From Blattabacterium sp. (Cryptocercus kyebangensis) (GTDB lineage Bacteria > Bacteroidota > Bacteroidia > Flavobacteriales > Blattabacteriaceae), in NCBI RefSeq assembly GCF_003226855.1, contig NZ_CP029820.1, forward strand, positions 545,501 through 609,500: a DNA stretch of 64,000 bases, in the 5' to 3' direction. Position numbers and translations under genes: made by a program. Each line of letters begins with the position of its first letter. The stretch's first letter is position 1. This document shows positions 38,923-60,188 of this stretch, in pieces. Below the pieces are notes generated by a model. The model had not been told where the DNA came from, did not search any database, and saw nothing but the letters and a program-made list of their open reading frames with translations.

Positions 38923-41034
38923 TTATGATTTTTGAATAGAAATCTGAATATCATTTTTTTTATCGTTCATTTTCAATGTGATCTTATCTCCTTTTTTTAA
39001 GGTTTCACTAATGATACATTCCGATATGGGATTTTTTACAAATTTTTCTATTACTCTTTTTAATGGACGGGCTCCATATTCTTGGTCAAATCCTTTTTCC
39101 TTAATAAAATCTTTTACTTCTGGAAATAAAATTAATTTATATCCTAAATAAGACATATGAATACTTATTTTTTCTAATTCTAGATAAGTTATTTTAGATA
39201 TATCTTCTTGGTTAAGAGTATTAAAAATGATAATATCATCTATTCTATTTAAAAATTCTGGAGAAAAAGTTTTTTTCAAAGTTTTTTCTAAAATATTTTT
39301 ATAATCATTCGATTTTTTTGATTTAGTATAAAAACCTATTTCTTGACCAAATTCTCTTAACTTTTTAGTATCCGTATTTGAAGTAAAAATAATTACAGAA
39401 TTTTTAAAGTTTACTTTTCTTCCAAGACTATCCGTTATACATCCATAATCAAGCATTTGTAATAGAACATGAAATACTTCATGATGGGCCTTTTCTATTT
39501 CATCTAATAAAATAACAGAATAAGGTTTACGACGTATAATTTCTGTTAGTTGTCCTCCTTCTTCGTATCCAACATAACCAGGTGGTGCCCCTATTAATCT
39601 AGAAACAGAAAATTTTTCCATATATTCACTCATATCGATACGTACTAATGATTCTTCTGAATCAAAAAGTTCTTTTGAAAATACTTTTGCCAAATAAGTT
39701 TTTCCCACTCCTGTTTTTCCAAAAAAAATAAAAGATCCTATAGGACAATTAGGATCTTTTAAACCTGTTCTATTCCTTTTAACTGCTTTCACTATTTTTT
39801 CTATAGCTTCATCTTGTCCTATTATTTTTTCTTTTAGAATGCTCATCATTTTATTCAACTTTTTCATTTCCGCTTGAGCTATTCTATTTACTGGAACTCC
39901 ACTCATCATGGAAACGACTTCTTCTACATTTTCTTCAGAAACTATTTCTTTATTTTCTTTGGATAAATTTTCCCATGATTTTTGTTCTTTAATCAATTGT
40001 TTTTCTATACGTTTTTCTGTATCACGTAGCTGCGCTGCTTCTTCATATTTTTGTCTTTTAACTACTTGGGATTTTTTTTCCCTAATATTTTCCAATTCTT
40101 TTTCCAAAGAAACTATTTCTTGAGGAACTTTAATATTTTTAATATGTACACGAGATCCAGCTTCATCTAGGGCGTCAATGGCTTTATCTGGTAAATAACG
40201 ATCAACAATATATCGTACAGTTAAATTTACACAAGCTTTTATAGATTCTTCTGTATAAATTACATTATGGTGACTTTCATATTTTTCTTTTATTTTTTTT
40301 AAAATTTCAATAGTTTCTTCTTCAGAAGATGGTTGTACTATAATTTTTTGAAATCTACGTTCTAATGCTCCATCTTTTTCTATATATTGTCTATATTCAT
40401 TTAACGTAGTGGCTCCAATACATTGAATGGAACCTCTAGCTAAAGCTGGTTTGAATATATTAGAAGCATCCAATGAACCGGTTGTTCCTCCTGCTCCAAT
40501 CATCGTATGAATTTCATCTATGAAAAGAATTAAATCTACATCTTTTTCTGACTCATTTATGATAGTTTTCATTCTTTCCTCAAACTGACCTCTATATTTA
40601 GTTCCAGCGACTAGACTTGCTAAGTCTAAAACAACTACTCTTTTATTATATAAGACTCTGGAAACTTTTTTTTGTACAATACGAAAAGCTAATCCCTCTG
40701 CAATAGCAGATTTTCCTACACCTGGTTCTCCTATAAGAAGAGGATTATTCTTTTTTCTTCTGCTCAATATTTGAGATACTCGTTCCACTTCCTTATCTCT
40801 TCCTACTATTGGATCTAATTTACCTTCAATAGCAATAGAATTTAGATCAATTCCAAAATTGTTCAATACTGGAGTATTGCTTCTTATAGAAGTTCCTTTA
40901 TAATAACTGGAACCCATTCTGATTCCTCCAAATCCACCACCAAATCCACTACTACCATAAGAAGAAGTGGAGCTCTCATTTTCAATATTTTCATCTGAAT
41001 AAGTAGAAGAAAAAAAAAATCTATTATGATTCAT
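38923..41034 (-). CDS. clpC: ClpC-type AAA+ chaperone, lacking the N-terminal Clp_N domain
   Basis: ClpC unfolds proteins for ClpP (encoded at 63273-63950). Two AAA+ modules are present: the first with GEPGVGKSAIAEG and ILFIDEIHTMIGAG, the second with GKTGVGKTYLAKV and VILLDEIEKAH. A UVR motif, KYEEAAQLRDTEKRIEKQL, sits in the middle domain. At 703 residues it is about 140 shorter than usual. Instead of the Clp_N repeat domain there is a Ser/Gly-rich leader of about 55 residues. An in-frame stop lies 10 codons upstream of the ATG and the dnaX gene is only 95 bp away, so the domain is truly missing. Confidence 0.94.
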   Translation of the reverse strand: MNHNRFFFSSTYSDENIENESSTSSYGSSGFGGGFGGIRMGSSYYKGTSIRSNTPVLNNFGIDLNSIAIEGKLDPIVGRDKEVERVSQILSRRKKNNPLLIGEPGVGKSAIAEGLAFRIVQKKVSRVLYNKRVVVLDLASLVAGTKYRGQFEERMKTIINESEKDVDLILFIDEIHTMIGAGGTTGSLDASNIFKPALARGSIQCIGATTLNEYRQYIEKDGALERRFQKIIVQPSSEEETIEILKKIKEKYESHHNVIYTEESIKACVNLTVRYIVDRYLPDKAIDALDEAGSRVHIKNIKVPQEIVSLEKELENIREKKSQVVKRQKYEEAAQLRDTEKRIEKQLIKEQKSWENLSKENKEIVSEENVEEVVSMMSGVPVNRIAQAEMKKLNKMMSILKEKIIGQDEAIEKIVKAVKRNRTGLKDPNCPIGSFIFFGKTGVGKTYLAKVFSKELFDSEESLVRIDMSEYMEKFSVSRLIGAPPGYVGYEEGGQLTEIIRRKPYSVILLDEIEKAHHEVFHVLLQMLDYGCITDSLGRKVNFKNSVIIFTSNTDTKKLREFGQEIGFYTKSKKSNDYKNILEKTLKKTFSPEFLNRIDDIIIFNTLNQEDISKITYLELEKISIHMSYLGYKLILFPEVKDFIKEKGFDQEYGARPLKRVIEKFVKNPISECIISETLKKGDKITLKMNDKKNDIQISIQKS

Positions 41035-41059
41035 AAATAAAAATGTTTCGAGGAAGATA

Positions 41060-41097
41060 AATTATCTATTTCATTTGTACAAATGAAATAGATAATT
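41060..41097. repeat. 38-bp perfect palindrome between dnaX and clpC
   Basis: Two 19-base arms, AATTATCTATTTCATTTGT and its exact reverse complement, meet with no spacer at 41078/41079. It lies in the 95-bp gap between dnaX and clpC, both on the minus strand. It could be a hairpin that ends dnaX transcription, an operator for clpC, or a cruciform site. No run of T follows on the minus strand, which is against a classic terminator. Confidence 0.9.
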
Positions 41098-41129
41098 GAA
41101 TATCTTCAATTGTCTTTTTTTTGTTTATT

Positions 41130-42584
41130 TTATTGTATTGGTATAATAGAAGATGAAAATTTCAAATTTAATCTTTCTATCAATTTATCTACACACTTAT
41201 TTTTTTTGGATAAAAAATTATATTTTTTTTTTGGAAAATTTTCTAATTTTTTTGTTAAAGTTTTAAATTTTAAATGAGGGTTATTTAATTTTTTACGTAA
41301 GTATTTTATAAAATATGTTTGGATTAAGAAATATTCACGATTTTCTAATTTTGAAGGAATTATTAAAATTATTCTATTTTCTAAAATTTGGAATTGTATT
41401 TCATTTTTTAATGAATTTAAATAAATTGGATTTATTTTTTCGGAAAATTTGTGTATAAAAATTTTCCAATTTTCTTTTAAAAATTGAATTTTTTTATTTT
41501 TTAATTCAGAATAATTACGATTTAAATTCCATTTATAAAAACCATTAAATAATTGTATTAAATATATTTCTATTGTTAATCTAGAATTTTTACTCAATTT
41601 AGATTCCTTTTCCATATCATGACAAATGATTAAAGCCTTAATTAAAAAAGAAGAAGATAATCTCTTTGACTGCTGTATATAAGATTGTATAATAGTTTTC
41701 TTTTTATATTTTAAAAGAAATAGGGTATCCGTATTTTTAGATAATAATAAATTTCTAAAATGAGTGGTTAATCCACCTGTAAAATTAATAGATGAAACTC
41801 CATTTTTCAAAAATTTATCCAATAATATTAATATTTTAGATATTTTTTCGTCTAATAGATAATCAATCACTTTAAAATAGGAATCTATATCAAGAATACC
41901 TAGTTTTTCCATTACTAATTTCTTAGAAATTTTTTTTTCTTCATAGAAAGTAAGTCTATCAAAAGTATAAAGGGCTTTACTAACTGAACCATTTCCATAT
42001 TGAGATATGAGAAATAAAGCTTCCTTTTCTATTTGAATACATTCTTTTTCCGAAATTTTTTTCAAAAAAAAATAAATTTCTCTTAAAGAAATTTGTTTAA
42101 ATTCATAAACTTGACTACGTGAAATAATGGGGTCTATTATTTCATTATTTTCTGAACAACAGAAAATTAATAATACATGTGAAGGAAGTTTTTCCATACT
42201 TTTGAAAAGGAGGTTAAAAGATTCTTGAGAAAATAAATGAATATCATTTATAATAAGTATTTTGTACTTTCCTTTTTTTGGATATAAAAAAATTTTCCTG
42301 ATCATTTCAAAAATGGATTCTTGATTAAAAAATCCACTAATTTCAAATACATTCAAGGATACTCCTTCTGAAAAAGAATTTAATTCATTGGCCAAAATTT
42401 GTGCACATGTATTTTTCCCAACTCCTTTTGGCCCCATAAATAATAAAATTTGAGATAAAAAACTGTTTTTTATTGCCTTTTTTAAAATAATTGTAACTTC
42501 ATTTTGACCAATGAGATCATTCCATTTTACAGGTCTATATTTTTTAGTTAATACAGTTTTGTAAGAAAAACCCTTATTATCCAT
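41130..42584 (-). CDS. dnaX: DNA polymerase III subunit gamma/tau, with altered ATPase motifs
   Basis: DnaX forms the clamp loader. The N-terminus TKKYRPVKWNDLIGQNEV and the fold order fit the family. The ATPase motifs are unusual: Walker A reads GPKGVGKNTCA, with Asn where Thr/Ser coordinates magnesium, and Walker B reads ILIINDIHLF instead of the family IDEVH. The four zinc-binding cysteines after Walker A are absent. The arginine-finger motif SRS is kept (IISRSQVYEF). At 484 residues, the tau-like C-terminal half is short and Lys/Asn-rich. It lies 15 bp after sucC. It may be a structural, ATPase-weak subunit. Confidence 0.88.
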   Translation of the reverse strand: MDNKGFSYKTVLTKKYRPVKWNDLIGQNEVTIILKKAIKNSFLSQILLFMGPKGVGKNTCAQILANELNSFSEGVSLNVFEISGFFNQESIFEMIRKIFLYPKKGKYKILIINDIHLFSQESFNLLFKSMEKLPSHVLLIFCCSENNEIIDPIISRSQVYEFKQISLREIYFFLKKISEKECIQIEKEALFLISQYGNGSVSKALYTFDRLTFYEEKKISKKLVMEKLGILDIDSYFKVIDYLLDEKISKILILLDKFLKNGVSSINFTGGLTTHFRNLLLSKNTDTLFLLKYKKKTIIQSYIQQSKRLSSSFLIKALIICHDMEKESKLSKNSRLTIEIYLIQLFNGFYKWNLNRNYSELKNKKIQFLKENWKIFIHKFSEKINPIYLNSLKNEIQFQILENRIILIIPSKLENREYFLIQTYFIKYLRKKLNNPHLKFKTLTKKLENFPKKKYNFLSKKNKCVDKLIERLNLKFSSSIIPIQ

Positions 42585-43890: not shown

Positions 43891-44558
43891 ATGGTTCAAT
43901 CTGAAAATATTTATAAATCCTTTGGAAAAGAAGAAATTTTGAAAGGAGTCAATCTTATAGTTAAAAAAGGAAGTATAGTATGTATATTAGGTGAATCTGG
44001 ATCTGGAAAGAGTACTTTATTGCATATACTGGGAACTTTAGAGAATCCTACTTTAAAAAAAAAGGAAAAAACAGTTTTAAAAATAGATGGAGAAAATGTA
44101 TTGTCCATTTCGGAAAAAAGACTATCTATTATTAGAAACGAAAAAATTGGATTTATATTTCAAACACCACAACTTCTTCCTGAATTTACAGCATTAGAAA
44201 ATGTTTGTTTGCCAAGATTGATAAAAATTAGGGATAAAAAAAATGTAAAAAAAAAGGAAAAAAATTATTGAATAAATTGAATATTTCTCAATTTGAAAAC
44301 TCAAAACCTGAAGAATTATCTGGAGGTCAAAAACAAAGGATATGTATTGCAAGAGCATTAATTAATGATCCTAAAATAATTTTTGCAGATGAGCCTTCAG
44401 GTAACCTGGATATGAAAAATGCTAAAAAATTACACGATTTTTTTTTTTCCCTAAGAGAAGAATTTAAACAAACTTTTTTAATTGTAACACATAATCTAAA
44501 ATTAGCAGATATGGCAGATGAAAAGTTGAAAATAGAAAATGGAATAGTAATTAAGTAA
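43891..44558 (+). pseudogene. lolD: LolD-like ABC transporter ATPase, split by a one-base frameshift in a poly(A) region
   Basis: LolD powers release of lipoproteins from the inner membrane. Part 1 (43891-44271) has Walker [18 protein letters not shown] and the Q-loop [11 protein letters not shown]. Part 2 (44268-44558) has the signature LSGGQKQR, Walker B KIIFADEPSGNLD and the H-loop IVTHN. The frame changes between 44236 and 44264, where runs of 8, 9 and 7 A occur; one extra A gives [19 protein letters not shown] and a normal protein of about 222 residues. All ATPase motifs are otherwise intact. It may be a sequencing error, early decay, or slippage-rescued, as for hemD. Confidence 0.85.
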
Positions 44559-60156: not shown

Positions 60157-60188
60157 TTAGTTTTTTATTTATATAAATAAAAAACTAA
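60157..60188. repeat. 32-bp perfect AT-rich palindrome at the end of the nucleotidyltransferase gene
   Basis: TTAGTTTTTTATTTAT and its exact reverse complement abut at 60172/60173. It overlaps the stop codon of the nucleotidyltransferase gene and so marks its 3' end. It may stop transcription before tatA, or form a stabilising 3' hairpin. Confidence 0.8.

Follow-up and report, generated by a model that had tools for sequence, protein, structure and literature searches.

A perfect 38-bp palindrome between dnaX and clpC of Blattabacterium, a probable product of template switching next to a conserved promoter-like block

The gap between dnaX and clpC in a Blattabacterium of the Cryptocercus-associated group carries a long perfect palindrome, which raises the question of whether this structure serves one of the two genes or arose as a by-product of mutation. 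To address it, we analyzed a stretch of 64,000 nucleotides of the genome (the window; the genome itself is denoted G000) and compared the gap with those of related genomes. The palindrome, AATTATCTATTTCATTTGT followed directly by ACAAATGAAATAGATAATT, is identical to its own reverse complement, as a preliminary description of the window had stated, and lies between two minus-strand genes, upstream of clpC and downstream of dnaX. A second genome, denoted G001, contains the same 38 bases; an assembly error confined to one genome can therefore not account for them. The features of the locus are as follows.

38923 to 41034, minus strand: clpC, identified as an open reading frame (ORF) with homologues.
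41052 to 41059, minus strand: TATCTTCC, a -7-like box located 20 bases after TTTG, compared with the Bacteroidota consensus TAnnTTTG.
41053 to 41059, no strand assigned: low-coordinate half of an outer stem in the RNA fold, GAAGATA on the plus strand and TATCTTC on the minus strand.
41054 to 41083, minus strand: conserved promoter-like block TTTGTACAAATGAAATAGATAATTTATCTT, comprising the clpC-side arm and the bases that follow it, identified by comparison of relatives.
41060 to 41097, no strand assigned: the 38-bp perfect palindrome, two 19-base arms with zero spacer and no mismatches, read directly from the sequence.
41080 to 41083, minus strand: TTTG, a -33-like box at the centre of the palindrome, present in 22 of 22 aligned genomes, which were chosen by a motif containing TTTG.
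41084 to 41097, no strand assigned: outermost 14 bases of the arm on the dnaX side, a mirror part specific to the lineage and unconserved beyond G000 and G001.
41101 to 41107, no strand assigned: high-coordinate half of the outer stem in the RNA fold, TATCTTC on the plus strand, mirroring the -7-like box.
41130 to 42584, minus strand: dnaX, an ORF with homologues in genomes G011 and G015, named by recognition of its translation.

The palindrome is the longest perfect inverted repeat of the window; the runner-up, at 60157-60188, is a second zero-spacer perfect palindrome with 16-base arms, located at the edge of an ORF. The earlier judgement that its length is far beyond chance was borne out: 264 kb of G000 and 200 kb of G001 contain 12 perfect inverted repeats in which the arms have 16 or more bases and the loop at most 12, and three first-order Markov resamplings of each stretch yielded no arm above 14. 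A search of the genome returned no second copy, and TTTGTASAAATG, searched in the genome at one mismatch, gave 32 matches vs 21 for a backwards control, with the palindrome itself as the only match at zero mismatches. A repeated mobile or regulon element was therefore rejected. Five matches to Rfam RNA families were obtained up to E≤1, each far under its gathering cut-off, and an Rfam RNA was rejected on that ground.

To determine the distribution of the palindrome, ClpC searches were carried out over 49 congeneric genomes; 48 gave a match of some kind and 47 contained clpC. The best match in G011 was only at the level of ClpB-like second matches and G015 gave none, both genomes being without clpC; the clpC of G047 (G047:C1:579449-581532) is in two frames with stops. 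The dnaX-clpC gap was read in all 47 genomes with clpC, and the palindrome is present, letter for letter the same, in G000 and G001 only. In G042, the sister of G001, exactly 48 bases are missing between two copies of ATAATT, of which one is left; this loss has the form expected of a slippage deletion, and clpC is intact despite it. A ClpC codon tree covering 30 of the 47 genomes groups G000 with the pair G001 and G042 at a support of 1.0, the nearest other genome being G044 (support 0.70). The pattern is therefore explained most simply by a single gain on the stem of this trio and one later loss. Of the two origins that the preliminary description had offered, selection or very recent origin, what stands of the second is that the origin is restricted to one clade. 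It is not very recent: the palindrome predates the split of G000 and G001, between which 174 of 216 clpC fourfold sites (81%) are identical.

Only one arm of the palindrome turned out to be conserved. In 22 genomes centred on TTTGTA[C/G]AAATG with at most one mismatch, the columns from -3 to +32 around TTTG are mostly fixed or nearly so, and little is conserved upstream of them. The result is a one-sided block of ∼34 bases with sharp bounds, which consists of the clpC-side arm and adjoining bases. A 34-base consensus of the block is matched at six or fewer mismatches in 24 of the 47 genomes, for each of which 0 of 200 shuffles scored as well. In six others (G005, G029, G025, G007, G036 and G037) mainly the TTTTATCTTTTT end is kept, with 10-12 mismatches, and scoring of the consensus over all 47 genomes gave no clear block in the deep lineages. 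At up to three mismatches, the block occurs as a single copy within the window. The palindrome is absent from most relatives, which the preliminary description had named as evidence against its proposals; the conserved block that overlaps one arm had gone unseen there.

Bacteroidota promoters have a -33 TTTG box at a usual spacing from the -7 box. The block resembles such a promoter, with TTTG, 20 bases and TATCTT: across the 22 genomes TTTG is invariant (as their choice by that motif favours), the TA of the -7 box is found in 21, and the last G of the consensus is absent. In G000 the box TATCTTCC ends in CC. The -7 consensus described for sigma-A of the Bacteroidota member F. psychrophilum, TAnnTTTG (in passages of PMC9723704), has a final TG that this box does not; the likeness to sigma-A promoters of Bacteroidota lies in TTTG, 20 bases and TA..TT in the right order before clpC, and the clpC promoter is putative. 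Among 119 upstream regions of G000, TAnnTTTG occurs 44 times in forward and 20 times in reverse orientation, but the complete pattern of two boxes shows no clear enrichment in these regions. Judged from its sequence, the conserved clpC-side arm is likely to be the clpC promoter. On the opposite strand a working divergent promoter is not expected, because the mirrored -7-like box lies 23, not 20, bases from TTTG there.

Other readings of the block were rejected. A small peptide from its ATG would meet an immediate stop in G000 (ATG AAA TAG). The pairs of a second hairpin, AAAGAGATA/TATCTTTTT, considered as an attenuator, are broken in several genomes when inspected by eye. Sigma-54 promoters have -24/-12 elements, and none were seen here by eye. 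Passages of PMC9723704 describe SM4, which bears on the sigma-54 reading.

The dnaX-side arm behaves differently from the conserved one. Over the first 19 positions the arms pair at 19/19 in G000 and G001 and at 7-14 in the 20 other genomes with the block. Outside the 12-base core ATTTGTACAAAT, these 20 genomes pair at 5.60/13 with their own arm vs 5.49/13 with the arms of other genomes (permutation p 0.34). Two arms of one genome thus match each other no better than arms taken from two genomes, and the palindrome is hence no ancient structure that decayed in the other lineages. In G000 pairing outside the core is 13/13, which 0 of 4000 random upstream segments equalled. The core itself is present in the outgroups G018, G046, G033 and G008. 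The clpC-side arm differs from that of G018 by two bases, indicating that copying was not purely one-way. The dnaX-side arm is poorly polarised, the gap being short and rich in indels, and the ancestral arm is not securely reconstructable. Elsewhere in the genus, G043 has a hairpin with 14-base arms, ATTATCTATTTCTT, resembling the focal arm (L253:112-143), and G031, G025 and G021 have similar matches at comparable places.

These observations are probably best explained by a template switch that started from the ATTTGTACAAAT core and, in the ancestor of the trio, produced an inverse copy of the promoter-like arm. This ancestor would have carried the one-sided clpC block, with ATTTGTACAAAT as a short perfect dyad at its -33 box. 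While the region was being replicated, the nascent strand would have folded back on the core, for which 12 bases may be enough of a seed, and would have been extended on itself in a short-range template switch of the type known as quasipalindrome correction; the dnaX-side flank would thereby have been rewritten as an inverse copy of the clpC-side arm. A function of the palindrome itself would not be needed. Possible side effects are that readthrough RNA from dnaX into clpC folds at this place and that the DNA extrudes a small cruciform. We infer the switch from its evolutionary product, in which two signs of it can be recognized, a rise of arm complementarity over the outgroups that is specific to the lineage (19/19 vs 7-14) and a short inverted repeat that pre-existed as a seed. 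Clustered multi-base changes, which a switch would copy from the other arm, are seen in mirrored form between G001 and G042 in the gene glpD; the focal arm is too rich in indels to be polarised, and a genome-wide test for paired changes was negative (see below).

Mutation of this kind has been described in other systems. In E. coli lacZ reporters, passages of PMC7202029 describe template-switch mutation associated with quasipalindromes, by which an imperfect inverted repeat becomes perfect, or closer to perfect, because the polymerase copies from the nascent strand. There the mutation was measured in a reporter, whereas in Blattabacterium, an uncultured symbiont, only the evolutionary product is seen and a promoter-like block overlaps it. 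According to passages of PMC8794818, a single template switch can create a reverse-complement repeat together with multi-base compensatory changes, as at glpD of Blattabacterium; that work concerns RNA genes, whereas the arms considered here belong to an intergenic promoter-like region and a protein gene. Among titles and the opening parts of abstracts in the open-licence literature, we found no paper on template switching in Blattabacterium.

Three alternatives assign a role to the palindrome, for which the preliminary description had proposed an operator for clpC, a 3' hairpin of dnaX mRNA or a cruciform. According to the first, it is a 3' hairpin of the dnaX mRNA, the stem protecting or ending the transcript, and such hairpins recur after dnaX because they are useful. 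RNA of the dnaX strand is indeed predicted to fold well: palindrome and outer stem together give -22.9 kcal/mol (z -6.85), the 7-base outer stem (41053-41059 with 41101-41107) pairing across a 3-base bulge in which 41098-41100 are unpaired. Moreover, unrelated long hairpins follow dnaX in two other lineages, G030 (L254:105-150; 18-base arms, loop of 10) and G011 (L255:108-148; 20-base arms, loop of 1, clpC lost). On the dnaX strand, however, no U tract follows the stem and the scan gave no terminator-like site, and a canonical intrinsic terminator was rejected because 41053-41107 contains no GC-rich stem with an immediate T run on either strand. Furthermore, the arms are unpaired in the 20 other block genomes, G042 lost the palindrome, long perfect repeats also occur in ORFs, where ending a transcript is impossible, and the few such gaps among the 49 genomes are, on a rough estimate, close to the background density of intergenic repeats. 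We consider this reading unlikely.

An operator is distinctly improbable; here clpC would be controlled by a dimeric protein that recognizes the dyad at the -33 box, and the long palindrome would be a strengthened, extended site. The spacer AAATGaAAgAGATA is conserved beside two promoter-like boxes, and a protein besides RNA polymerase may read it; yet the dyad beyond the core is unconserved, its pairing equalling the cross-genome control, 14 of the 22 genomes aligned read TAG at the centre and so lose the inner symmetry, and searches of the genome and the window revealed no further copies before other genes. Neither an operator nor a terminator is supported, and conservation backs neither the operator nor the dnaX hairpin.

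An origin by ordinary point mutations, with selection in the trio lineage favouring a cruciform or an RNA stem, is very improbable. G000 and G001 agree at all 38 bases when only 81% of clpC fourfold sites are identical, but they also agree throughout 449 of 5740 fully intergenic stretches of 38 bases (a fraction inflated by any RNA genes among them). To reach the palindrome, G018 or G033 would need 7-8 pairing changes and even the best-paired of the other genomes at least five, and G042 deleted it with clpC intact. The compensatory changes for which the preliminary description had looked to relatives are absent between G000 and G001 (38/38 identical), and with the arms unpaired in the 20 other block genomes, the deletion in G042 and the unexceptional identity, its suggestion of selection on the palindrome is not supported.

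Returning to the template switch, we found that long inverted repeats abound in these genomes. When arms of 13 bases or more and loops of up to 12 are counted, perfect inverted repeats number 20 in 264 kb of G000 and 16 in 200 kb of G001, and, in 100 kb each, 7 in G042, 6 in G017, 2 in G044 and 0 in G018; the excess is thus not genus-wide. Mirror-repeat controls gave 1 in G000, 0 in G001, 3 in G042, 1 in G017, 0 in G044 and 1 in G018, and third-order Markov expectations for arms of at least 13 bases were 1, 2 and 0 in G000, G001 and G042, respectively. In G000 and G001, 24 of 36 long repeats lie inside ORFs vs 3 of 42 in 861 kb that cover 80 clpC loci of Bacteroidota. The control genomes for repeat density are uneven, those of G064, g65 and g66 being rich in mirror repeats as well, so weight was put on the contrasts within Blattabacterium. 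The excess agrees with a survey (passages of PMC10434271) in which the Blattabacterium of Cryptocercus punctulatus, of the same group as the genome analyzed here, is an outlier for the frequency of inverted repeats relative to GC content. That survey counts repeats of at least 6 bases, and those passages contain no template-switch mechanism; the long perfect repeats in ORFs and the clpC case come from the present analysis.

Two of the repeats in ORFs were compared over 30 loci each, out of 49 genomes matched. A zero-spacer palindrome of 38 bases in glpD (named from its translation) is perfect in G001 (L208:5068-5105) and G042 (L289), although two adjacent bases differ between the two genomes on both arms in mirrored fashion. 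Pairing is 18/19 in G000 and 15/19 in G044, and at most 12/19 in 26 of the 30 loci. A second quasi-palindrome in an ORF (L201:9805-9855; orthologues L257-L286) is perfect (20/20) in G001 and G028 with different bases, and 11-19 of 20 positions are paired in the 28 other loci. Both patterns resemble template-switch footprints. In a genome-wide test, imperfect inverted repeats of G000 and G001 were aligned with each other and showed no excess of paired changes: where both bases of a pair had changed, 3 pairs stayed paired and 7 broke for repeats chosen in G000, and 4 and 9 for those chosen in G001. As this count is about that expected by chance, we make no claim on a genome-wide rate, and the mechanism is one that we infer. 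Loss of SbcD was rejected as the cause: the protein is absent in 68 of 68 genomes of the family, but in the order, too, only 44 of 148 genomes give any match and 19 are above the cut-off, and its absence therefore does not single out the lineage.

Two further observations concern the genome and the window. A second contig, of 3,669 bases, belongs to the genome and gave matches to nine plasmid records, each from Blattabacterium; the four best, from Cryptocercus hosts, are 94.5-95.1% identical over 76-79% of the query, which places the window in the Cryptocercus-associated group. The record NC_017925.1, labelled as Blattabacterium of Blaberus giganteus, gave the same figures (95.3%, 89-2827) against this plasmid as a Cryptocercus punctulatus record, and its label may for this reason be doubtful. 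At 43891-44558 of the window, two overlapping frames close to an A run together make up an ABC-transporter ATPase (LolD-like by reading), which suggests a frameshift or slippage.

Taken together, the palindrome before clpC is probably an ordinary mutational product and not a conserved control signal. Its case cautions that a perfect palindrome in the AT-rich genome of a symbiont should not be taken for an operator or a terminator, and it draws attention to the promoter-like block conserved before clpC in Blattabacterium. It also offers a tractable example of the birth and loss of a palindrome in reduced genomes, gained in one ancestor, retained by two lineages and deleted by a third. More tentatively, it is conceivable that unusually frequent template switching in the Cryptocercus-group genomes makes and re-makes long perfect palindromes all over the chromosome, rewriting regulatory regions and protein sequence, here the clpC promoter region and the glpD product, in mirrored multi-base steps, and that short-repeat deletions then remove them. 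If this were true, a palindrome in a reduced genome would record how the DNA mutates and not how it is regulated.
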